64,000 nt of DNA from Gari tellinella (Eukaryota > Mollusca > Bivalvia > Cardiida > Psammobiidae): the NCBI GenBank assembly GCA_922989275.2, contig OV277864.1, positions 52,947,550 to 53,011,549 on the forward strand, given 5' to 3'. Numbering within the stretch: position 1 is the stretch's first letter; each line of letters begins with the position of its first letter. The position numbers and the translations under genes were made by a program. The notes under the pieces were generated by a model that worked only from the letters and a program-made list of their open reading frames with translations, was not told the DNA's origin and did not search any database. Positions 49,266 through 62,156 of the stretch are shown here, piece by piece.

Positions 49266-49475
49266 TACAGTAAAACGTCGCTATAACGACCACTAAAACG
49301 AAGACTAATTGATTAGATAATAGAGAGGTGGCAGCTTAAAGCAAGGTGACAGTGAAACAGAAAGCTCCTAAAGGAGCTTTCTGTTTCACTGTCACCTTGC
49401 TTTAAGCGGTCACCTGTCGTAAACACCATAATGATAAACAAAATTTAGTGGTCGTAATAGAGCGGTTTTACTGTA
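49266..49475. mobile_element. Pogo-like MITE, CAGTAAAACGTCGC ends, copy 4
   Basis: TACAGTAAAACGTCGCTATA to AATAGAGCGGTTTTACTGTA with TA edges. The central palindrome (49335-49405, arms CTTAAAGCAAGGTGACAGTG) is near perfect, so this is a young copy. Confidence 0.8.
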
Positions 49476-50775: not shown

Positions 50776-51141
50776 GTAAGAACTCATGCCTAATTGTTTT
50801 AACTTTTAAACCAGAAAATCTTTCATTCATAGCGCGTCAAGAGTAGGCCTATAGTTGGCATTATTTGCCTAACATAGGCTAAGTATTGAAATTACCTAGG
50901 ACACAAGTCAAACTGTGAAACAGACTATACTCTGTCGTATTTATGACGTATGATAATGACGTTCCTGTTTTACATGTGTACTGTACTGTTAAACCTGTTT
51001 CAAGCGACATCACATCTTAAAAAATTCGCTGTTTGTAGCAGTATTTCCTAAAGAAAAGCAAACATGTAATGAAAAAATCAAACATGCAAAGTATTTGTGA
51101 ACCAGACGCAACACGAAATCATGATGCTCACTCAATGTTCT

Positions 51142-51414
51142 TGTTGTGAAAGTAGACCAGTGTATCACGTGACAGTTAATACCAAGAACCACGTGACAAT
51201 TCCCGTAGTTCCCAAGTCCCGTGAGATCTGGGAGAAAAGCCCGCGAACGGAGTGCGCAGACTTCACTTCGTTACTTGACCACATTACAGACAAGACGTCT
51301 CGAGCCAGGCTCAAAAACATACCGGGGAACAACCGAAGACTGCGGCAGGCGATACCAGAGGGAGACCACTGGCCCTGATACTGTGAGTAAACATAGTTGA
51401 GCACATTTACTTTA
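51142..51414 (+). repeat. 5' LTR
   Basis: Begins TGTTGTGAAAGT and ends TTTACTTTA; matches 60869-61141 base for base by eye. Contains two E-boxes CACGTG at 51166-51171 and 51190-51195 and a donor-like GTGAGT near its end (51383). No clear TATA box. Open frames across it occur in both LTRs and are not genes. Confidence 0.95.
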
Positions 51415-51415
51415 T

Positions 51416-51426
51416 TGGCGACGAGG
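51416..51426 (+). other. Primer binding site
   Basis: TGGCGACGAGG begins one base after the LTR. TGG pairs with the CCA end of the priming tRNA. Which tRNA was not determined. Confidence 0.75.
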
Positions 51427-52468
51427 AAAAACCATTGAAAAACAATATTTTTGTGACACGAGGTTGTGTCTGCGTAAGCAAACAGGAATTTGTTTTTTCA
51501 ATTTTGTCTTGCAACGAGGGCGTTGTTAAGTGCAAACAGTTGCCATTGTGCATATTTCAACGCTGGCGAAGAGAAATTTGGAAAAACAAGTTAAAATTGT
51601 ACATTTGGAGCATTTTTTGATTTCGGCCGAGGTCGGCTATTTCCGTGACGAAAATTCCGGGAAAAAGCACATGGTGGTGCGTACGCATCATAGACTTCCG
51701 GTTATACTGTAAACTTCCGGTAACAGCCCACGAGATTGAGAATTTGGATGTTTGTACTTGATATACCTGTTTTTCTTCAACAACGTTAACTGGAATTGTG
51801 TTTTAGGATTATTTTATTTAAGAATGGAAATGGCCAAGTGGTAATTTCTGTTTAGAGAATATAAATAATAATTTTTCGCTTAGGGAAATAGCAAGTGGAG
51901 TCGAGGCCGACTTCTGTAATTTTTTTTGTTTCCTAATTAATTCCAGTTTGAAAAATTTGATTCAACTGCCTGCCAACGACGATTTAAGCCAGAAATAGTG
52001 TGTGTAGAGGGTGATTGATGAGGTCGTCATTTATTCCCAGTTCCCTGTCTACATGGGACTTTGTTGAGTGTTTGACGAGGGCGTCATCAACTCTGGACAT
52101 CTACATCACAAACTCAGCTGTTTCTTGCCGAAGTCGGTAAGGTGAGTTATTTTAAGGGTGGTAACTATTTTGTTAAAGAACTCAGTTAGGGTACTGAGAG
52201 GATGTTGCAGACAGTATTTGGTCAGGGTATCAAACTGAGATATTGAAGATAATTTTTTGGAAGGAAATTGTCATATTTTGCAACAGATTTAGATCTTAAT
52301 CCGGCAATAAATTTGAACCTTTACCTTGCACAGAGTTGGATCCTGAAACAGATTTGCAATTTTTAACCCGGTTTATACCATTTATTTGGAGATTTGGATG
52401 AATTATATATATATTTTTTATTTTTTTTTTGAAACTATTTTTTGTATTGGGTAAACCTTTGCACCATT
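51427..52468 (+). other. Retrotransposon leader
   Basis: About 1 kb before gag with no long frame. It contains the splice donor at 52142 and a pyrimidine- and T-rich stretch just before the gag ATG. Confidence 0.7.
52139..52147 (+). promoter_or_regulatory. Splice donor in the leader
   Basis: AAG|GTGAGT is a full match to the donor consensus, with the intron starting at 52142. It would join to the acceptor at 58273 and remove gag-pol, giving a short mRNA for ORF3. Confidence 0.55.
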
Positions 52469-53398
52469 ATGGCTTGTAATAACCCTGTTCCAAAGGTTGC
52501 AATCAATTTTGCTACTGAGAGGGAGTTAACGGCATTGCAGGGGGTGGCTAACAAAACAGCAAAGAAAATTGTTAAACACAGGAAAAAGAATGGAAATTTT
52601 ACTTATGCAACCATTTATAATGTAAGGGGACTAAGGGTGACTCGTGAGTTGATGGAATCCATCGACTTCATGCCAAATCAAGAGTTTGGTATGGAGGATG
52701 ATGCGGGTTGGATACAAAATATGGCTCATTTTGTGGACAGGGCCCAGGGTAGGCCCGTTCAATCTTTATTTGATAGCAGGGGAAGACATCAAGCTGGACC
52801 ACTTCCACAGAAGGAGCAATTGCCTCCTCCTTATAATAGTGAGGTAAGTGGTTCTAATACAGAATCTGATTCGGAAGGGTCTGATTCAGATGTGGTGGCA
52901 AAGCGTAAGGTAAGAAAGGTGAAGAAGGATTCCTCTAACCATTTCCGTCCATCGACTCTACCAAAGAGTTTAGAATTTGATGGCGAGTCCAACTGGAAGC
53001 TTTTCAAGAAGAAATTTTTGCATTACGCGGAAGCTTCTGGGTGGTCAAGTAGGGAAAAGAGGGACGCTTTGTGTTGGAGCTTGAAAGGTAAGGCTGGTGA
53101 ATTTTATACCATGCTCTGTGAAGTTGGGGAGGAGCCTAATTTCAAAACTCTTTTATCACAACTTGATAAGCGTTTCAAGGGTGCAGAGCTTGAAGAGACC
53201 TTTCAAGCAAAATTCAGGGCAGCTCACCAGCGAGATGAGGAGGATCTTTTGGACTGGGCTGATAGGGTTTTGATGCTTGCAGCAAAGGCTTTTAAAGGGT
53301 TGCATGAGCCTTTTTATAAGGAAGAGTGCTATACTCCAGTTTTGCCAGGGTTGCAGCAATGTGGAGGCGGGTCAACATGCTTCATTACAAAAGCCTAA
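52469..53398 (+). CDS. gag: Gag, N-terminal part
   Basis: Structural protein that forms the retrotransposon particle and packages its RNA. The start is the ATG at 52469 (an upstream in-frame TTG is ignored). Residues about 12-67 look like a ComEA-type double helix-hairpin-helix: INFATERELTALQGVANKTA with GNFTYATIYNVRGL, normally a sequence-independent DNA-binding fold. Then an acidic/serine linker (about 128-145), a basic KRKVRKVKK stretch, and the retrotransposon-Gag capsid block (FDGESNWKLFKKKFLHYAE, WSLKGKAGEFY, LDKRFKG, WADRVLMLAAKAF). The native frame is lost at about 53305-53340; the last 20 or so residues up to the stop at 53398 are out of frame. The rest of Gag continues one base over. 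Confidence 0.85.
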   Translation: MACNNPVPKVAINFATERELTALQGVANKTAKKIVKHRKKNGNFTYATIYNVRGLRVTRELMESIDFMPNQEFGMEDDAGWIQNMAHFVDRAQGRPVQSLFDSRGRHQAGPLPQKEQLPPPYNSEVSGSNTESDSEGSDSDVVAKRKVRKVKKDSSNHFRPSTLPKSLEFDGESNWKLFKKKFLHYAEASGWSSREKRDALCWSLKGKAGEFYTMLCEVGEEPNFKTLLSQLDKRFKGAELEETFQAKFRAAHQRDEEDLLDWADRVLMLAAKAFKGLHEPFYKEECYTPVLPGLQQCGGGSTCFITKA

Positions 53399-54005
53399 GA
53401 CAATGGATACGGCTGTGGAATCCATTGAGTGGTATATGGCCATATGTGATAGCAGAAGGGCTCACAAGAAAAAAACAGAGAAGTCCGAGAAGTCTGATTA
53501 TAATATCTATAAGACCACCTGTTACTCAGAAGATTCTAGCTCTGGATCTTCAGAAGAAGACGAGCCTGTGCCACGGAGGAGAAGGAACCGAGAATCACTT
53601 AGGGAAGTGAAACAGGAAAAAGGAAGACGAGAATTTAGGGAAAAGTATTCCCCTCCTATTTTAAAGAAACCAGGGGGTTTAGAAAACCGTATGGCGAAGG
53701 TAGAACAAACTTGCAATGCTTTAGCCGAAAATGTTCAAATAATGGCTTCTAAATTTGATCAGCTGACTTCATTGGTGACCAAAGTGGATCAGCTCGCTAT
53801 AAACATGAACGATATTCAAAGGAGAGCAAGAAGTCGGAGCCCGAGTACAGGAAGACCAACCTCGCCGAGCTATGTTTGTTTTAACTGCCGACAGCCAGGT
53901 CATTTTCGAAGGGATTGTCCAGCAAAGAAGGTGAGTTTCTCGGAGTCTTTAAACGAGAAAGGGTCGGGGATAAAGGCCGATTCCCCACCCCACCGGGAGG
54001 CCTAA
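53305..54005 (+). CDS. gag: Gag, C-terminal part
   Basis: Continues Gag in the +1 frame: QFCQGCSNVEAGQHAS is the usual end of the capsid block. A charged, serine-rich stretch and a probable coiled coil follow (LENRMAKVEQTCNALAEN to LAINMNDIQRRA), then a CCHC zinc knuckle CFNCRQPGHFRRDC (C-x2-C-x4-H-x4-C) that binds genomic RNA. Stop at 54003-54005. The frame overlaps protease by the frameshift region. AAG|GTGAGT at 53928-53936 just after the knuckle is a second donor-like site, falling on a codon boundary. The break from the upstream part is a one-base change; no known programmed-shift motif was seen there. Confidence 0.8.
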
Positions 54006-55195
54006 TGGATAATCTAGTTCCAGCGGTTGGTTTGTCCAAGGTGGGACAGCCCAATATTGATTTTCAAGGGGAGGAATTTAAAGTAGTTCAGGCTGAACAT
54101 ATTCCCATAGAGGGTTCCCAGGGGGGAAAAATTCAATGTAAAGAGTCTGGAACAGAAAATGTTGTTTCCAAGGGTGGAATCGTTTCAGGCGACGACTCGG
54201 AAGATGAAGAGGTTATTGTTGTAGAGCGGGTAAAGTCCCTCGCTTTATACCATGTAGTTGTTCAAATTGGTAATACTCTTGTAGATGCAATAGTGGATAC
54301 AGCCGCTGAATCAACAATTATATCTGATAAGGTTTTTCAGAAACTTGACCCGAAACCCAAGGTTTTAAGTAAATTGAAATTGTTGGCCGCTGGAAGGGAT
54401 ATGATTATGCCAGGTCATAAAGTAGGTCCAGTTCAGCTGAAAATTGGTTCTTCAGTCTTCAGTCAAAACATTAATGTAGGGCCTATCGATGACGATATGT
54501 TGCTTGGTTTTGATTTTTTAACTAAATGTGGAGCTCAGATAGATATGAAAGATAATCGTATGTCTATTGGTAAGAATGTCATTCAGCTTCGATTAGCTAA
54601 TGAGTCCAAAGATCCGAAAGTATGCAAGATAACTATAGCCAAGAGGCGAGTTATTCCACCTAATTCGGCAGTAAGGGTTTCCTGTTCATTAGATGTTTCC
54701 ATGCTAGATTATTATGTTGAGCCAGACATAGATTTAAATTGTGCAATCCCAAGAACTCTGCATTCAGGGAAGGATCAGTCTTATATCTGTGCCATTAATT
54801 TGTCTGAAAATTTCAAAGTGCTAAAGAAAGGAAAAGTAATTGGACAAGCTTGGGAAGCCGATGTACTGGGAGACCAGGTTAATATGGAGGTTATCTCTGA
54901 GGGCAGAGAGGAAGACTCCAGTGAAACACCAAATAAGCCATTCGAGAAGGTAACAATACCTGAACATCTCAAAGACATGTTGGAATCCTCAAGGGCTAAT
55001 CTCACTGAGGGTCAGTTTGAGAAATTGCAAACGGTGGTGAGTAATTTTCAGGATGTGTTTGCTAAAAATTCCTTTGATCTTGGAACGTTCTCCGCTGTTG
55101 AGCATTCTGTAGATACAGGGGGGGGGGGGGGCCTTACCTATCAAACAAAAGATGCGTCGAACCCCATTGAAATTTGTAAAGGAAGAGGAAGATGA
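53915..55195 (+). CDS. pro: Protease and start of Pol
   Basis: Entered by the -1 shift at 53954; residues before that are formal. Aspartic protease cleaves the Gag-Pol polyprotein. The active-site loop reads VDAIVDTAAESTIIS (residues about 123-137), DTA where most retroelements have DTG or DSG; the matching LLGFDFL block is about 70 residues on. After it lies the usual beta-rich linker to RT (KRRVIPPNSAVRVSC, KVIGQAWEAD) and the start of RT (FEKLQTVVSNFQDVFA, AVEHSVDTG). The frame then meets 14 consecutive G at 55118-55131, beyond which RT lies one base over. The last 22 or so residues to the stop at 55195 are out of frame. Confidence 0.85.
   Translation: MSSKEGEFLGVFKRERVGDKGRFPTPPGGLMDNLVPAVGLSKVGQPNIDFQGEEFKVVQAEHIPIEGSQGGKIQCKESGTENVVSKGGIVSGDDSEDEEVIVVERVKSLALYHVVVQIGNTLVDAIVDTAAESTIISDKVFQKLDPKPKVLSKLKLLAAGRDMIMPGHKVGPVQLKIGSSVFSQNINVGPIDDDMLLGFDFLTKCGAQIDMKDNRMSIGKNVIQLRLANESKDPKVCKITIAKRRVIPPNSAVRVSCSLDVSMLDYYVEPDIDLNCAIPRTLHSGKDQSYICAINLSENFKVLKKGKVIGQAWEADVLGDQVNMEVISEGREEDSSETPNKPFEKVTIPEHLKDMLESSRANLTEGQFEKLQTVVSNFQDVFAKNSFDLGTFSAVEHSVDTGGGGGLTYQTKDASNPIEICKGRGR
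53948..54003 (+). promoter_or_regulatory. Programmed -1 frameshift site with pseudoknot
   Basis: TTTAAAC at 53948-53954 is a canonical slippery heptamer and is in phase (codons TTA AAC in the gag frame). After a 6-base spacer, GGGTCGGGGA (53961-53970) pairs with TCCCCACCC (53982-53990) with one bulged C. AGGCC in the loop (53974-53978) can pair with GGCCT (53999-54003), giving an H-type pseudoknot just before the gag stop. A -1 slip leads into the protease frame. Confidence 0.8.
55118..55131 (+). repeat. 14-G homopolymer at pro-RT frame break
   Basis: 14 G in a row within the conserved linker before RT. Protease reads into it in one frame and RT out of it in the next. It may be polymerase slippage in the element or a base-count error in the assembly. 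Confidence 0.85.
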
Positions 55196-58100
55196 GATTA
55201 ACAAAATGCTTGAAGCAAATGTTATTCAACCATCCATGTCTGATTGGGCCTCCGCTCCTGTGCTTATTAGGAAAAGGGATGGATCGGTCAGGTATTGCAT
55301 TGATTATAGGGCAATTAATAATGTTACAATAAAAGATGCATTTCCGTTACCTTTAGTGGAGGATTGTGTCGATACATTATCAGGCAATGAATGGTTCTCA
55401 AAATTGGATGCAAATAGTGCGTACTGGCAAATTCCAGTTAAAAAAGAGGATCAGAAGAAAACTGCTTTCATAACCAAGTATGGACTGTATGAATTCGTTC
55501 GAATGCCTTTCGGAATGTCCAATAGTCCGAGCAGTTTCATGAGGGCAATAAATTTGGTCCTACGAGGGTTAAACTGGAAAACGGTTTTGGCATTCTTGGA
55601 CGATATACTGGTTCTGGGTAAAAAATTTGATGATCATTTGCAAAATCTGACTGAGGCGTTGTCTAGGTTTCGTAAGTATGGTCTCAAGTTAAAACCCAAG
55701 AAGTGTATATTTTTCCAAAGGAAAGTAGAGTTTCTAGGGAGAAACGTCAGTAAGGATTCTTTAGAAATGTCAGAATCTGACATTGAGGCCGTTAGGAAAT
55801 GGCCAATACCAACAACTTCTAAGGATGTTGAGCGTTTTTTGGGTCTGGCGAATTATCATAGGTTATTTATCAGAGATTTCGCAGAGATAGCTGGTCCATT
55901 GTATAATTTGACAGGAAAACGTCCTTTTAAGTGGGAGGCAGTGGAACAGGAAGCTTTCGATACGTTAAAAGAGCTGTTGACCCAACCTCCTGTTTTGACT
56001 CTCCCGAATGAGACGGATGAGTTTATTCTGGATACGGATGCATCAAATACAGCAATAGGGGGAGAGTTATTGCAAGTTCAACAGGGTAGAGAACGGGTAA
56101 TCGCTTATGCTAGTTTTGCATTAACTCCGGAACAGCGTAATTACTGCACTACAAGAAAGGAGCTACTGGCAGTAATTAGATTAACGAGACAGTTCCGTCA
56201 TTATCTGCTGGGTAGGCCGTTTACCGTAAGAACTGACCATAGCAGTTTGGTGTGGCTGATGAGATTTAAGGAGCCTCAGGCTCAACTAGCCAGGTGGTTA
56301 GAGGAATTGAGTCAGTACAACATGATTGTGCAACATCGTAAAGGTAAGCAACATGTAAATGCAGATTCTCTTTCTAGATCTAATTCTACAACCAATCACT
56401 ATAAACATGGGGTTAAACTGCAGGATCTACCTTGTGGAGGTTGCCGAAAATGCAAACGGGCTGAGGACACCTGGGGTTCGTTTATCGCTGAGGTGGATGA
56501 TGTTGTTCCAATTTCGGCGGTTCCTTCAACCATAAGCTTGTGCTATATGGAAGAGAACAGGAAATGGGATCCAGGGGGAGATCCAATTACTATTGAGGTT
56601 TGTCAGGACAAAGAGAGGGTGAGTCTTTTGTCAGAAACTGGGATGGTTTTGGGTGATGTAGATCCAGCGTTGCACGAAACCAGCTCTGTTTGGGGTTTCT
56701 CCAGGGTAGAGATATTAGACAAACAGGGTAGTGATGAAGACTTGGTGTTTGTGTTAGGATGGTTAAATGGGAATATTAGTCCAAGTGCAGCTAAATTAGC
56801 TTTAGCGAGTCCTGCCTGTAAGTTCTATTGGATCAATAAAGATCGTTTAGGATTTATAGATGGGGTTTTGCAAATCCAGCGTAAAAATGAGAGATCTTAT
56901 GACTTAATTCTCCCCAAAAGTTTGCAAAATATTGCATTAGGTCTGCATCATGATATTCCATCTTCAGGCCACCAGGGGGTAAGCCGAACCAAGTTGAGAA
57001 TGAAAGAAAAATTCTTTTGGTATGGAATGGGTAAAGACATTGAGGGGTATGTCTCTACTTGTGAGATATGCAATCAGAATAAGAAATCTATTCGGCAGGG
57101 CAAGTACCCATTGACTAATTATCATGCTGGATCCCCAATGCAGAGGGTTCATTTAGATTTCATGGGTCCTTTAAGTGTTACAAAGAATGGGAATGAGCAT
57201 ATCCTCATGATGGTTGATCAATTTACCAAATGGGTGGAGATTATCCCACTTCCTTCACAAACGGCTGAAATAACAGCTAGGGCGGCAGTAAACTCTTTCT
57301 TTTCCAGATTTGGAGTTCCGTTCGAAGTTTTCTCGGACCAGGGTAAGAATTTCCAAAGTAAATTGTTTACAGCTCTGTGTGAGGTTTTGCAAATCCATAA
57401 AGCAAGAACCACTCCATATAGACCTTCAGCTAATGGACAAGTTGAGCGTTTCAACAGAACTCTAATGGATGCGGTAAGATGTTTTGTGGGTAAAAAACAA
57501 GATAATTGGGATGAGTTTCTTCCTCAGCTGGCAGGAGCAATGAGATCGACTGTGAATAGGAGTACCGGTTTCACTCCTAATATGCTCATGCTAGGTAGGG
57601 AAGTTAATATTCCTGCTAATCTAATGTTTTCCTCCACGACTCCGAAAACCGATAAAGAAGCACATCAGTATATCTATGATCTTGTAGAAAATATTCAGCA
57701 GGTTCATCAGCTTGCCCGTCAAACATTAAAGCAGACGCAGCAGCGAATGAAAAAGGACTATGATCTCAGGGTTCTAGAGAGGTCGTATGAGGTGTTGGAC
57801 AGAGTGTATTTGTTGGACTGTGCAGCGGTCAAAGGTAAGAGTAAGAAGTTGTGTCCTCCATGGAAGGGTCCGGGGGTGATTATTCAGAAACTTACTCCTT
57901 ATCTTTTTAGGGTTCAACTCAGGAACAAGGTCTTCACAGTTAATCATGATAAACTGAAACCCTGTAGGGATAGGCATTTACCAGCTTGGCTTAGTAATTT
58001 TACCCTAGATGGTTCTGATGCATCAGAAGACACCGAGGACGGTATTTTCTGTGTGTGTAGGAGACCATGTGGGGGCGAGTTTATGATACAATGTGATTAT

Positions 58101-58205
58101 TGTGATGAGTGGTATCACGGATCTTGTATAAATCTTGCGCCCTCGGATGCGTTGGATATTGATAAATACAAGTGTCCATGGTGCAAAGGTTTCCCTACTG
58201 TTTAA
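55152..58205 (+). CDS. pol: Pol: RT, RNase H, integrase and PHD finger
   Basis: 1,017 residues from the first ATG; native RT starts a little upstream, across the G tract. RT: KLDANSAYWQIPV (about 84-96), PFGMSNSP, catalytic FLDD (148-151). RNase H: D294/D296, E337, D362, D405 (DTDAS, TRKELLA, RTDHSS, NADSLSR). Integrase: zinc part H600-x6-H607-x29-C637-x2-C640, and catalytic D669, D729, E765 with a D35E spacing (HLDFMGPL, FSDQGKN, GQVERF). GPY/F-like module WKGPGVIIQKLTPYLFRV (904-921). C-terminal PHD finger, 965-1012: C967-C969, C981-C984, H989-C992, C1008-C1011, with W987 in CDEWYH. It most resembles the PHD fingers of KDM7/PHF8-type demethylases, which read H3K4 methylation. All catalytic residues are present. 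Frame is open throughout. Confidence 0.95.
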   Translation: MRRTPLKFVKEEEDEINKMLEANVIQPSMSDWASAPVLIRKRDGSVRYCIDYRAINNVTIKDAFPLPLVEDCVDTLSGNEWFSKLDANSAYWQIPVKKEDQKKTAFITKYGLYEFVRMPFGMSNSPSSFMRAINLVLRGLNWKTVLAFLDDILVLGKKFDDHLQNLTEALSRFRKYGLKLKPKKCIFFQRKVEFLGRNVSKDSLEMSESDIEAVRKWPIPTTSKDVERFLGLANYHRLFIRDFAEIAGPLYNLTGKRPFKWEAVEQEAFDTLKELLTQPPVLTLPNETDEFILDTDASNTAIGGELLQVQQGRERVIAYASFALTPEQRNYCTTRKELLAVIRLTRQFRHYLLGRPFTVRTDHSSLVWLMRFKEPQAQLARWLEELSQYNMIVQHRKGKQHVNADSLSRSNSTTNHYKHGVKLQDLPCGGCRKCKRAEDTWGSFIAEVDDVVPISAVPSTISLCYMEENRKWDPGGDPITIEVCQDKERVSLLSETGMVLGDVDPALHETSSVWGFSRVEILDKQGSDEDLVFVLGWLNGNISPSAAKLALASPACKFYWINKDRLGFIDGVLQIQRKNERSYDLILPKSLQNIALGLHHDIPSSGHQGVSRTKLRMKEKFFWYGMGKDIEGYVSTCEICNQNKKSIRQGKYPLTNYHAGSPMQRVHLDFMGPLSVTKNGNEHILMMVDQFTKWVEIIPLPSQTAEITARAAVNSFFSRFGVPFEVFSDQGKNFQSKLFTALCEVLQIHKARTTPYRPSANGQVERFNRTLMDAVRCFVGKKQDNWDEFLPQLAGAMRSTVNRSTGFTPNMLMLGREVNIPANLMFSSTTPKTDKEAHQYIYDLVENIQQVHQLARQTLKQTQQRMKKDYDLRVLERSYEVLDRVYLLDCAAVKGKSKKLCPPWKGPGVIIQKLTPYLFRVQLRNKVFTVNHDKLKPCRDRHLPAWLSNFTLDGSDASEDTEDGIFCVCRRPCGGEFMIQCDYCDEWYHGSCINLAPSDALDIDKYKCPWCKGFPTV

Positions 58206-58273
58206 CAAAAGGTATCATGACATCAGGGTTTTGTCTCTCATTATGTTTGTTCTCTTCTTTGTTTCCTTATTAG
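58206..58273 (+). promoter_or_regulatory. Splice acceptor abutting ORF3
   Basis: The pyrimidine-rich tract TGTTCTCTTCTTTGTTTCC leads to TTATTAG with AG at 58272-58273, and ATG follows at once. Branch-like CTCAT sits about 35 bases up. Fits a spliced subgenomic mRNA. Confidence 0.6.
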
Positions 58274-59221
58274 ATGGAGAACCATAAATTGCCATGGGAT
58301 GAAGTTCAAGACTGTTCCCTCATCGATTATCTCTTGAGGCCTAGAGATCTGACAAACAAGTTGACCATGCCTTTCAAATCTGCTGGAAAAATAATCTTCC
58401 CAACCAGAACTCAGATTTTGGGGGCATTGGCAACCCAAGCTTCGGTAGCCAGGAGAAAGAACAAGAAAGCCTGGCTTCGGACTATGGCTTTTGAAGCCCT
58501 GCATGTGATTGGAGCTGAGCGGGATTGGGTCCTTAAGTATTTTGGTACCGCTCCTACTGAGCATAAAAGACCACCAGACCCACCCTCACCAAATTGTTCG
58601 GAGTCCGATGAGGACTGGAAACCTGCGGTGCCTATGAAAAAGGGATCTGCCCCCGTCAGGACAGCCACAATCTCTTCGGCTCCTGTTCCGCAGATAGTGT
58701 CCCCAGCTCCAGTTCCGCCTACATTGTTTCCTTTGCCGTTATCCTTGATGCCTTTCCCTTTAGATTACACGGGCAAGGATTTCCCACCTTTACCTTCGGT
58801 TTCAAAAGATACGTCCATGGAGCCGGTAGTTGTTGATTCTCCTATAATGGTGAATCAAGAATTATCTTCTTCATGTATGGAAGTCGTTGATTCTCCTAAG
58901 AGGTCTTGGAAATGTGTGTCTAAGGGGTCGGGGGTTTCAGATAAAGGTATTACGCTTGGAGAAGGAAGATCGGATGCATCAGCCAGACCGTCTTCTGAAA
59001 AGAAACGCAGGATGGATCCGGTCACCCCGTCCCTTGAGGTAACGAGGTCGTCCTCAGGAAGGGTAGTTTCTCTTTCTTCAACACCCAGAGTATCGATTAC
59101 AACCAAGGTGTTCACTAATAAGCCGGCACGAGGGCGTGTCGTGATGTTCAACAACCCTCAAGACAACAACCTGTATCCCGGATTCGTATGGGGGGACGCA
59201 AGGTGGGCGTTTGTGGAATAG
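58274..59221 (+). CDS. ORF3, unknown accessory protein
   Basis: 315 codons from an ATG touching the splice acceptor. Not recognised. Residues 1-95 look folded (KLPWDEVQDCSLIDYLLRP, IIFPTRTQILGALATQ, WLRTMAFEALHVIGAERDW). About 100-200 is rich in proline and serine and likely disordered. A basic SSEKKRRMDP (about 240-250) could be a nuclear signal. The end reads FNNPQDNNLYPGFVWGDARW. No signal peptide or membrane segment, so it is not a typical Env. It overlaps the zinc-finger ORF by 34 bases in another frame, with a run of six G at 59190-59195 in the overlap. Probably made from spliced mRNA. Confidence 0.7.
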   Translation: MENHKLPWDEVQDCSLIDYLLRPRDLTNKLTMPFKSAGKIIFPTRTQILGALATQASVARRKNKKAWLRTMAFEALHVIGAERDWVLKYFGTAPTEHKRPPDPPSPNCSESDEDWKPAVPMKKGSAPVRTATISSAPVPQIVSPAPVPPTLFPLPLSLMPFPLDYTGKDFPPLPSVSKDTSMEPVVVDSPIMVNQELSSSCMEVVDSPKRSWKCVSKGSGVSDKGITLGEGRSDASARPSSEKKRRMDPVTPSLEVTRSSSGRVVSLSSTPRVSITTKVFTNKPARGRVVMFNNPQDNNLYPGFVWGDARWAFVE

Positions 59222-59740
59222 CCGGTTGTGAGAAGAGGACAAGTTTTTTAAAGCTTCATCTTGTAGAGGATCACCTGCCCATTGTGTTTTCCGAGAAGAT
59301 GAAGCCGACAGAAGAGGTTACCCAACGCCGTTATGCATGTCTAGTCAGCATCGCCAAAACTATTTTAGGACCCAGGGCCACTCTGAAGGATGTCCAGGAT
59401 CACTTTAATCGTGGAAATTATATCCGGCCGGGGTGGGAAATTTTACCAGCACAGGTTGAGGCGATGTCGCAGCTATGTCATAGTATGGGGTGGAGGGTTC
59501 CCGATAGATTTTCCTTGAATCCTATTAATTCTCCAGCTGTGTTGTTGCACTGGAGGTGTCTTCTTGTAATGACTAACTTCATGACCAGGGCTGTTATGGA
59601 GGATTTGCGCTATAAGTTCAGTGGTTCACGTGTTCCTGTGCACTCAGGGTTGTGCCCGTTGATGGTTTGGAAGATGTATCAGAGGAGGAGTTGGAGTCCC
59701 TTAAGCCCGTCATATTTGCATTTGATAGCCATTTTCATGC
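59188..59740 (+). CDS. C2H2-like zinc finger, N-terminal part of TatD protein
   Basis: ATG at 59188. A single C2H2-like finger C9-x4-C14-x9-H24-x4-H29 (VCGIAGCEKRTSFLKLHLVE), then a helical region of about 110 residues (RRYACLVSIAKTILGPRATL, VEAMSQLCHSMGWRVPDRF, LLHWRCLLVMTNFMTRAVM). Around 59645-59660 the reading passes, one base over, into the TatD frame; from there to the stop at 59751 this frame is noise. The likely original protein is zinc finger, helical region, TatD. A zinc finger would supply nucleic-acid or protein contact. Whether it starts at its own ATG or by shifting from ORF3 is open. Confidence 0.65.
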
Positions 59741-60536
59741 TGATAGATTAGCAAAAAGCTTAGGGACTGCAGCTAATTCTTCAGTTCCATCTCTCCTTGG
59801 AAACATGCCTTTACAAGAACGGGAGGATTATGTCCTGCAGGTGTCTGGAGGTATAGCGAATTATTGTGATCCAGAGGAGTATCCAACGGGAGACGACCTT
59901 AGTAGGTTGGTTTCCAATGGCTTCAGAGCAGCCATTGGGATTCATCCTAAAAAGATTGCCTCCGACCGTCAGTTTAATAGTATGATAGGATTGTTACGAT
60001 CCTCTGCGGTTGTTGGTTTGGGGGAAGTGGGGTTGGACCATTCTGTGAGCCCGGAGAAGTGGTATCCTCAGGAACAGCAGTTGAAAAGGATTCTTCAACT
60101 TCTAGATCCTAGCCAGGTGTTAATTCTACATCTTCGTGGTTCAGATCGTGCTGGTGCTTATGTTTATCGTCGAGGTCTAGATATAGTTAAGGAGTTTGCA
60201 TCAGTACAACAGCGTATCCAGCTCCACTGTTTTTCTAGTGATTTGGACGTGGTGAATTGTTGGCTGCAAGATTTTCCTGAGACACATTTCAGTTTTTCGG
60301 GTATGTGTCGCAACTTCAGTTCAGTGCAGAAAGACGCTTTGAGGAATGTTCCTGAGAACCGACTTCTTCTAGAGACGGACGCTCTGTATTTTCCTCTTTC
60401 CACGGAGTATAGCTGTAGTGCCCCTCACATGTTGGATATAGTTGCTAGTACTGTGGCGGATATTAGAGGTACTACAACAATGGAGGAAATTATGGAGATT
60501 TCGGAAGCAAACGCCAAGAGATTTTTCCGTGTCTAG
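59652..60536 (+). CDS. TatD-family metal-dependent hydrolase
   Basis: TatD proteins are TIM-barrel, metal-dependent DNases (3'-5' exonuclease activity and roles in DNA repair or apoptosis in known members). About 280 residues, full length for the family. Metal ligands are all visible: DSHFH (H27, H29), GIHP (H98 region), VVGLGEVGLD (E125), LILHLRG (H160), LHCFSS (H192), LLLETDALY (D243). The C-terminus IMEISEANAKRFF is the usual TatD end. No ATG starts this frame; the first codons (GTG at 59652) are formal, and it is best read as the continuation of the zinc-finger ORF after a one-base break. The stop falls 330 bases before the LTR. The frame is otherwise intact, so it was under selection until recently. 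Confidence 0.9.
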   Translation: MPVDGLEDVSEEELESLKPVIFAFDSHFHADRLAKSLGTAANSSVPSLLGNMPLQEREDYVLQVSGGIANYCDPEEYPTGDDLSRLVSNGFRAAIGIHPKKIASDRQFNSMIGLLRSSAVVGLGEVGLDHSVSPEKWYPQEQQLKRILQLLDPSQVLILHLRGSDRAGAYVYRRGLDIVKEFASVQQRIQLHCFSSDLDVVNCWLQDFPETHFSFSGMCRNFSSVQKDALRNVPENRLLLETDALYFPLSTEYSCSAPHMLDIVASTVADIRGTTTMEEIMEISEANAKRFFRV

Positions 60537-60868
60537 AAGATGGCAGTGCCCAGGGGGGTAGTTGATATTATTCATCCTTAAATGATCAGTGTTAGGTTAG
60601 TTAAGGTTGGATTATTATGGAACTGTGAATTTTGTAGAATACTCAGGGGAGTATATTAGATTTGTATCATTTAAGTTGGAGAACTTTATGGATCAGTGAA
60701 TTTTGTAGAATACTCAGGGGAGTATATAGAAATCATTTTCCTAATCCATTGTGGACGGATTCGGGATGTTGCAGAATACTCAGGGGAGTATGTGGTTTTT
60801 TAATGAACTGGGAATATGGAATATTTCTGTTGAGGAGTACAGATTTGAGTCTATAAAACGGGGAGGAG
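60537..60868 (+). other. Retrotransposon 3' region with three hairpins and polypurine tract
   Basis: ATACTCAGGGGAGTAT, a 6-bp stem with AGGG loop, occurs at 60639-60654, 60710-60725 and 60776-60791, each preceded by G(T/C)AGA. At 60855-60868 AAAACGGGGAGGAG is the polypurine tract that primes plus-strand synthesis, directly before the LTR. Confidence 0.8.
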
Positions 60869-61141
60869 TGTTGTGAAAGTAGACCAGTGTATCACGTGAC
60901 AGTTAATACCAAGAACCACGTGACAATTCCCGTAGTTCCCAAGTCCCGTGAGATCTGGGAGAAAAGCCCGCGAACGGAGTGCGCAGACTTCACTTCGTTA
61001 CTTGACCACATTACAGACAAGACGTCTCGAGCCAGGCTCAAAAACATACCGGGGAACAACCGAAGACTGCGGCAGGCGATACCAGAGGGAGACCACTGGC
61101 CCTGATACTGTGAGTAAACATAGTTGAGCACATTTACTTTA
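60869..61141 (+). repeat. 3' LTR
   Basis: Same 273 bases as the 5' LTR by eye, followed by the TTCT duplication at 61142-61145. E-boxes at 60893 and 60917. Confidence 0.95.
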
Positions 61142-61412
61142 TTCTTTCATTATGAAATTAATTGTTTATTATCAGTTAGATCTAGATCTAGATTCTAGCT
61201 GGGCGATTTTTGTTTCGATAAAAAGATATTTAGGACAAATATTTTCGGAATTATATCTCGATCTACATTGTACATGAGACTTACTGTCTGAACAGGAGCT
61301 ACAGTTCTGCTGCAGGTGGTAAACGAACTTTTTTCTGGCTTGCGTGTGTCCTTCTTTAAATCAGTACAATACCTTTAAAGTTTGAAATCTGTTTAAACAA
61401 ATACAGCATTAC

Positions 61413-61987: not shown

Positions 61988-62156
61988 GAAATAATCTCTG
62001 TTCTACCGTTGTGAAACGGTATTTTACAACGGTCGGTCGTTGTGGTGCGCAGGAATTGACCACTCAGGCCTTCGGCCTTCGTGGTCAATTCCTGCGCACC
62101 ACAACTCCCAACCGTTGTAAAATACCGTTTCACAACGGTAGAACATAGATTATTTC
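61988..62156. repeat. 168-bp fold-back element
   Basis: Arms of about 75 bp (GAAATAATCTCTGTTCTACC to GGTAGAACATAGATTATTTC), few mismatches, with AGGCCTTCGGCCTT at the centre. Contains a smaller inverted pair CCGTTGTGAAACGGTATTTT. No further ends. Confidence 0.85.

Follow-up and report, generated by a model that had tools for sequence, protein, structure and literature searches.

A Ty3/Gypsy-type lineage in the bivalve Gari tellinella with a PHD finger after integrase and a TatD nuclease domain in a third open reading frame

The window analysed here, a 64,000-nucleotide stretch of Gari tellinella contig OV277864.1 (positions 52,947,550 to 53,011,549), contains at 51142-61141, on the plus strand, a Ty3/Gypsy-type element recognised by its paired long terminal repeats (LTRs), target-site duplication, primer-binding site, polypurine tract and Pfam domain order. 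Beyond its integrase (IN) the element encodes a PHD finger, and shortly after pol there begins a separate open reading frame, ORF3, which carries a TatD-type metal nuclease domain. This IN-PHD-TatD combination is an inherited lineage design and not a chimera. The overall reading, to which we assign a probability of about 0.6, is that the lineage gained a Gag with an HhH motif, a PHD finger and the TatD-bearing ORF3, that the PHD finger targets chromatin marked by trimethylated lysine 4 of histone H3 (H3K4me3), and that ORF3 acts as an accessory nuclease.

Recurrence of the module order

A protein search of the host genome (1.6 Gb, 80 contigs) with the TatD domain gave at least 135 matches (133 of 240 candidates scored), which were merged into 129 loci. 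Among the matches listed, a PHD finger lay 0-8 kb upstream on the same strand in 98 of the 129 loci, compared with four where it lay downstream and none where it lay on the opposite strand. Near-full TatD matches had a PHD finger upstream in 80 of 98 cases. Six of the 18 unpaired near-full loci were inspected: L012 contains a nested insertion, two others (L027 and L035) are family F relatives in a degraded state, L018 has kept its metal ligands with no pol seen within the stretch fetched, and L030 and L036 are stand-alone frames described below. Conversely, 46 of 144 PHD loci lacked a TatD partner; weak matches, which may be host PHD genes, make up many of them. When reverse transcriptase (RT) was the query, TatD was found within 8 kb downstream in 70 of the 78 matches with at least 60% identity and in none of the 44 with 52% identity or less. 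Twenty-three TatD loci (L009-L028 and L030-L032) were fetched as 7-10-kb stretches, and 19 of them held IN, PHD and TatD in that order, the exceptions being L012, L018, L027 and L030.

Ten families, from A (that of the window) to J, were distinguished by our own grouping. They share a common plan of RT, RNase H, IN and PHD followed by ORF3 with a C2H2 module and TatD, and many copies are open-framed; Gag and protease are present in nine, the family C stretch beginning at RT. By our count, 45 of the 78 RT matches lie within open frames of 1,400 aa or more, an in-frame stop being present in one, and many copies with equal scores occur in several families; it is therefore probable that several of the families moved recently. 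Near-identical LTR pairs of the window's family were also found on several other contigs, together with unpaired LTR matches (40 of 123 candidates scored). The earlier note on this DNA had asked if the module order recurs in LTR-flanked copies with intact frames, and these observations answer that it does.

That note had also described a complete element with identical LTRs. The LTRs are indeed identical, but as assembled the window copy is not coding-complete: gag is spread over two frames, protease and pol over two and ORF3 over three, whereas the gag, protease-pol and ORF3 frames are open in other genome copies. The broken frames would suit a one-off chimera, nested insertion or misassembly that placed host TatD and PHD genes inside an ordinary Gypsy element in this copy only. 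Such an event is scarcely credible given the recurrence of the order in ten families on many contigs, on which ground it was rejected; the near-identical LTR pairs on other contigs and the presence of pol-PHD proteins in other species also stand against it.

Outside the host genome, 37 proteins matched the integrase end plus PHD, and PF00628 was detected in 36 of them. Their sources include the crinoid Anneissia japonica, the gastropod Nucella lapillus, whose pol-PHD protein continues into the ORF3 N-terminal domain, and a bacterial metagenome-assembled genome from a lucinid clam, which probably contains host DNA. Within the genome, the nearest other Gypsy lineages (51-52% RT identity) are L033 and L034, the two that were fetched of the 44 distant Gypsy RT loci. 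Each has one gag-pol frame, of 1,658 aa in L033 and 1,892 aa in L034, flanked by identical repeats of 300 nt that stand 6.4 kb apart in the first and 6.9 kb in the second, and HhH, PHD and TatD were not found in either by Pfam. Both lie outside the TatD lineage in the midpoint-rooted pol tree, and the simplest history would be that PHD and ORF3 were acquired once, in the ancestor of the lineage. The pairs H+I, E+F and B+G are seen, by inspection, both in the RNase H plus IN tree, which has 20 rows, and in the 24-row TatD tree.

The PHD finger and ORF3

The PHD finger occupies the C-terminal end of pol (58050-58184; PF00628, E=2.5e-7), and its best matches among solved structures in the PDB are PHF8 (E=1e-13), PHF2 (4e-13) and BPTF (6e-12), which we take to be H3K4me3 readers. 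The aromatic cage of such readers is presumably formed by Y, then Y or W, then M and W. Position 1 is Y in eight of the ten families, F in A and H in J; position 2 is W in six (B, E, F, H, I and J); and positions 3 (M) and 4 (W) are invariant in all ten, so that the full four-position cage fits in five (B, E, F, H and I). Of 39 outside proteins, 34 match the cage pattern, with Y/F in 33, W/Y in 26, M in 34 and W in 34; the other five comprise the ORF3-like P0001 and P0002, P0039, which is without PHD, and P0032 and P0035, which miss the pattern. A targeting module is favoured because of the match to H3K4me3-reading PHD fingers and the largely conserved cage, and it is reasonably probable that integration is biased towards active promoters through binding of the PHD finger to H3K4me3.

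TatD is not part of pol and belongs to the larger ORF3 (58274-60536), which is open over 762 aa in other copies and is divided here among three frames (58274-59221, 59188-59751 and 59652-60536). At its N-terminus is a helical domain, from which a disordered linker leads to the C2H2-finger module and the TatD domain. The finger (59212-59274) is followed by a conserved helical module, and its C, C, H and H are invariant in all 12 aligned sequences, namely those of the ten families, P0001 and P0002. The TatD domain (59721-60530; TatD_DNase, Pfam E=1e-31) has the TatD fold and a sequence match to YcfH (E=2e-12), and the six metal ligands (H, H, E, H, H and D) are kept across families. ORF3 is probably an active nuclease. 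In six family pairs the ratio of nonsynonymous to synonymous differences (pN/pS) was 0.39-0.52 for TatD, 0.10-0.27 for RT and IN and 0.05-0.31 for PHD, values that are rough because pS is saturated. As estimated in this way, TatD shows constraint, weaker than that on pol.

ORF3 is likely to be made from a spliced mRNA. A YAG preceded by at least 12 pyrimidines in 16 positions lies no more than 45 nt before the ORF3 ATG in seven of ten families, whereas other parts of these elements gave 355 such cases in 9,948 windows. This enrichment is only suggestive because in families B and F the ATG after the acceptor was taken instead of the first ATG, and because the windows overlap. In the window element a predicted polypyrimidine tract and 3' splice site (58229-58273) adjoin the ORF3 ATG, and a putative 5' splice site, AAG/GTGAGT (52139-52147, intron start 52142), which agrees with the consensus at nine of nine positions, lies upstream of gag in family A. 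Pol is in the -1 frame relative to gag in all nine families with Gag; a slippery heptamer lies in the overlap in seven of them, TTTAAAC in five and a different one in two, and the remaining two lack any.

Three stand-alone proteins resemble ORF3. L030:474-5354 (minus strand, G000:C19) is a 1,627-aa open frame with the C2H2 module and a TatD domain that has lost three ligands; it has no PHD upstream, and no pol domain was found within the 7 kb fetched. L036:200-2923 (plus strand, G000:C17) is a 907-aa open frame in a 3-kb stretch, also with the C2H2 module and TatD and no PHD upstream, and changes at its ligand motifs were seen by eye. Similar to these is P0002 of Saccostrea echinata (1109 aa), which has lost four of the six ligands and shares 29% identity with L030 across 244 aligned TatD positions. 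All three could be domesticated, as host genes made from ORF3, or could be relatives of ORF3.

Proposed mechanism, alternatives and known systems

In the mechanism proposed, the ancestor of the lineage would most simply have gained HhH at the N-terminus of Gag, the PHD finger after integrase, and ORF3. Gag and pol would be translated from full-length RNA through a -1 frameshift, and ORF3 from a spliced RNA, as is retroviral env. The PHD finger would bind H3K4me3 and hold the integration complex at active promoters; in chromoviruses, chromodomains do likewise for other marks. The ORF3 protein would be an accessory nuclease, led to nucleic acid by its finger module, and would trim element intermediates or host nucleic acids. 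Either element intermediates or host defence nucleic acids can be named as its target only tentatively, and the remaining odds fall to other substrates, R-loops or repair ends of the host among them. The earlier note had suggested the PHD finger for targeting and TatD for DNA end processing or for defence against host DNA sensing; the first suggestion is favoured here, and the second is tentative. The faster change of ORF3 suggests that its role may be host-facing.

Several observations weigh against this reading. No upstream PHD accompanies 31 of the 129 TatD loci, and eight of the 78 close RT relatives have no TatD match within 8 kb, the one examined holding a nested insertion. Cage position 2 is non-aromatic in four of ten families (C in A, D in C and D, H in G), and in J the first position is histidine. 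HHH_3 was not found by Pfam in the Gag of family J, although a comparable stretch can be made out there by eye; of the six families scanned (A, D, E, F, I and J), five were positive, A over the cut-off and D, E, F and I under it at E<1e-3. Three of ten families fail the strict 3' splice-site criterion, the ORF3 start codon was picked by eye, and the perfect donor occurs only in A; families E, F, H and J reach 7-8 of nine positions, the site in E falling within the LTR stretch. The rate of change of TatD is about 2 to 4.5 times that of pol, a difference that would fit relaxed constraint too, and the pair B+G, with 94/94 support in the pol (RNase H plus IN) tree, carries a long-branch warning in the TatD tree.

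The missing second aromatic residue would also fit a PHD finger that does not target at all and instead stabilises integrase or Gag-Pol, or binds unmodified histone or nucleic acid. This is considered unlikely, given the cage M and W retained throughout the families and in all 34 outside proteins, and the nearest solved relatives being PHF8, PHF2 and BPTF. For ORF3, a role in the element's own replication is a possibility, though a doubtful one: TatD would remove RNA primers, flaps or abasic ends from cDNA before integration, with no host-facing role. PMC12709183 describes Escherichia coli TatD as a 3'-5' exonuclease on single-stranded DNA and RNA, AP-endonuclease activity for TATDN1, TATDN3 and TatD, and RNA cleavage by TATDN2 that resolves R-loops, and 3'-end processing was suggested for the bdelloid DEDDy ORF3 in PMC5408684. 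Standard replication, however, seems not to need TatD, since the sister lineages L033 and L034 have full pol domains between identical 300-nt repeats without it, and change faster than pol would be unusual for a core replication enzyme.

Just as tentative is the proposal that ORF3 is a counter-defence factor, which would defeat silencing or sensing by degrading small RNAs of the host, RNA derived from R-loops or the cDNA that is sensed. Its accessory position, likely spliced expression and fast change relative to pol point that way, as do the stand-alone frames with a decayed active site (L030, L036 and P0002), such as would arise if the protein were reused by hosts as a decoy; these frames could also be decaying ORF3 copies or serve unrelated roles. 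Still less probable, and offered as speculation, is a two-part host-manipulation kit in which an H3K4me3-reading integrase directed at active promoters is combined with a spliced TatD that disarms the nucleic-acid defence of the host, hosts having repeatedly kept dead-site copies as decoys or restriction factors.

The closest known kind is the LTR elements with enzymatic ORF3s, represented by the DEDDy exonuclease of bdelloid rotifers. As described in PMC5408684, Juno and Vesta likewise have a nuclease gene where env would lie, one that lacks coiled-coil and membrane domains, and ORF3s of this type typically come from spliced messages and are described with intact catalytic residues; unlike the TatD found here, theirs is DEDDy (RNase D-like) and their hosts are rotifers, and PHD occurs in that text only in a reference title. 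The earlier suggestion of an undescribed system was thus overstated, enzymatic ORF3s including nucleases being known in LTR elements (PMC5408684). A search of the open literature, which did not extend to Repbase or subscription journals, found neither an LTR element described as carrying TatD nor a Gypsy integrase described as followed by PHD. TatD would be a second, unrelated nuclease fold beside DEDDy among such ORF3s, and the two folds together suggest a recurrent problem of LTR elements to which accessory nuclease genes are the answer.

Chromoviruses, which are Ty3/Gypsy elements with a chromodomain after integrase, resemble the present lineage in having a histone-reader-type domain at the C-terminus of pol, a chromodomain there and a PHD finger of the H3K4me3-reader type here. 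They carry heterochromatin readers; the present LTR elements, a large and naturally occurring collection in which a predicted H3K4me3 reader terminates the integrase, form their mirror image and make histone-mark targeting testable with an independent module. PHD fingers are present in other mobile elements, namely Ginger1 DNA transposons, where in one family, Ginger1-9_HM, the finger sits on a Gypsy-like integrase (PMC2836005), and, as known from a reference title only, CR1-like non-LTR elements; both are of other classes, and TatD or HhH-Gag is not mentioned in the part of PMC2836005 at hand. Cer1 of Caenorhabditis elegans has an env-position gene whose product, CERV, is a non-envelope nuclear protein from a spliced mRNA; unlike ORF3, it has no obvious homology outside nematodes and is needed for export of genomic RNA, and a nuclease domain is not mentioned in the text available (PMC10309623).

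Bacterial TatD/YcfH and human TATDN1 and TATDN3, all with solved structures, have the TatD fold in common with the element domain, which differs in being fused to its own N-terminal and C2H2 modules. TATDN2 was not among its PDB matches. In the giant squid one TATDN2 adjoins transposon-like genes (PMC6962438), and element genes may account for some of the TATDN2-like entries in mollusc gene sets.

Anatomy of the window element and minor observations

The element is flanked by the target-site duplication TTCT (51138-51141 and 61142-61145). Its 5' LTR (51142-51414; 273 bp, TG...TA) is 100% identical to the 3' LTR (60869-61141), and the pair appears as a perfect direct repeat of 275 nt, the final 2 nt of which belong to the common flank. 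Compared with three sister copies, the element differs at about 1% of bases over 9.9 kb, though its own LTRs are identical. A putative tRNA primer-binding site (TGG..., 51416-51426) and a polypurine tract (60860-60868) were recognised by eye.

The broken gag (52469-54005, in frames 52469-53398 and 53277-54005) is a single open frame in other copies. It has the HhH motif at its N-terminus (HHH_3, 52493-52603; PF12836, E=2e-9), a capsid part with a weak PNMA match under the Pfam cut-off (7e-4) and a CCHC zinc knuckle (53865-53921; PF13696/PF00098, zf-CCHC_2 at 3e-8), so that with the C2H2 finger of ORF3 the element holds two kinds of zinc finger. The domain order protease-RT-RNase H-IN, as in Ty3/Gypsy, is made up of the aspartyl protease (gag-asp_proteas, 54260-54523; PF13975, E=7e-8), RT (RVT_1, 55266-55745; PF00078, E=2e-35), RNase H (55932-56318; PF17917/PF17919, RT_RNaseH at 2e-33) and integrase with H2C2 and DDE core (56913-57425; PF17921, Integrase_H2C2 at 1e-16, and PF00665, rve at 4e-13). 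Every named domain from HHH_3 through TatD_DNase exceeds its curated Pfam cut-off, which bears out the modules (HhH, zinc finger, PHD and TatD) first noticed from the letters. The Pfam scan listed no chromodomain in pol, where PHD takes its place, and no env glycoprotein after it, TatD_DNase being the sole Pfam match of ORF3.

A 16-nt palindrome occurs three times in the 3' untranslated part (60639-60791). It is kept in 11 of the 12 family-A loci L001-L012, with four copies in L006 and none in L007, and had no match in the non-family-A loci examined. At least six LTR pairs about 3 kb apart match LTR positions 120-273 only; one of them, L029 (G000:C5:81830900-81834330), has identical repeats, ORFs with HhH-Gag pieces seen by eye, only short pol remnants and no ORF3. 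At G000:C19:42569896-42597022 three family-B-like elements follow one another with an exact spacing of 11,988 bp, either a tandem array or an assembly effect. Past its integrase domains the pol frame L034:1816-7491 continues for about 300 aa, which gave no Pfam match and whose C-terminal part has, on inspection by eye, similarity to an Hsp20/p23-like beta domain. The metagenome protein P0037 (1,379 aa), a pol-PHD, is an entry that also carries PF01885, named KptA/TPT1 RNA phosphotransferase. Outside the element, the window has two tight inverted repeats, at 61988-62156 (83-nt arms, 93% complementary) and 49323-49418 (47-nt arms, 94%).

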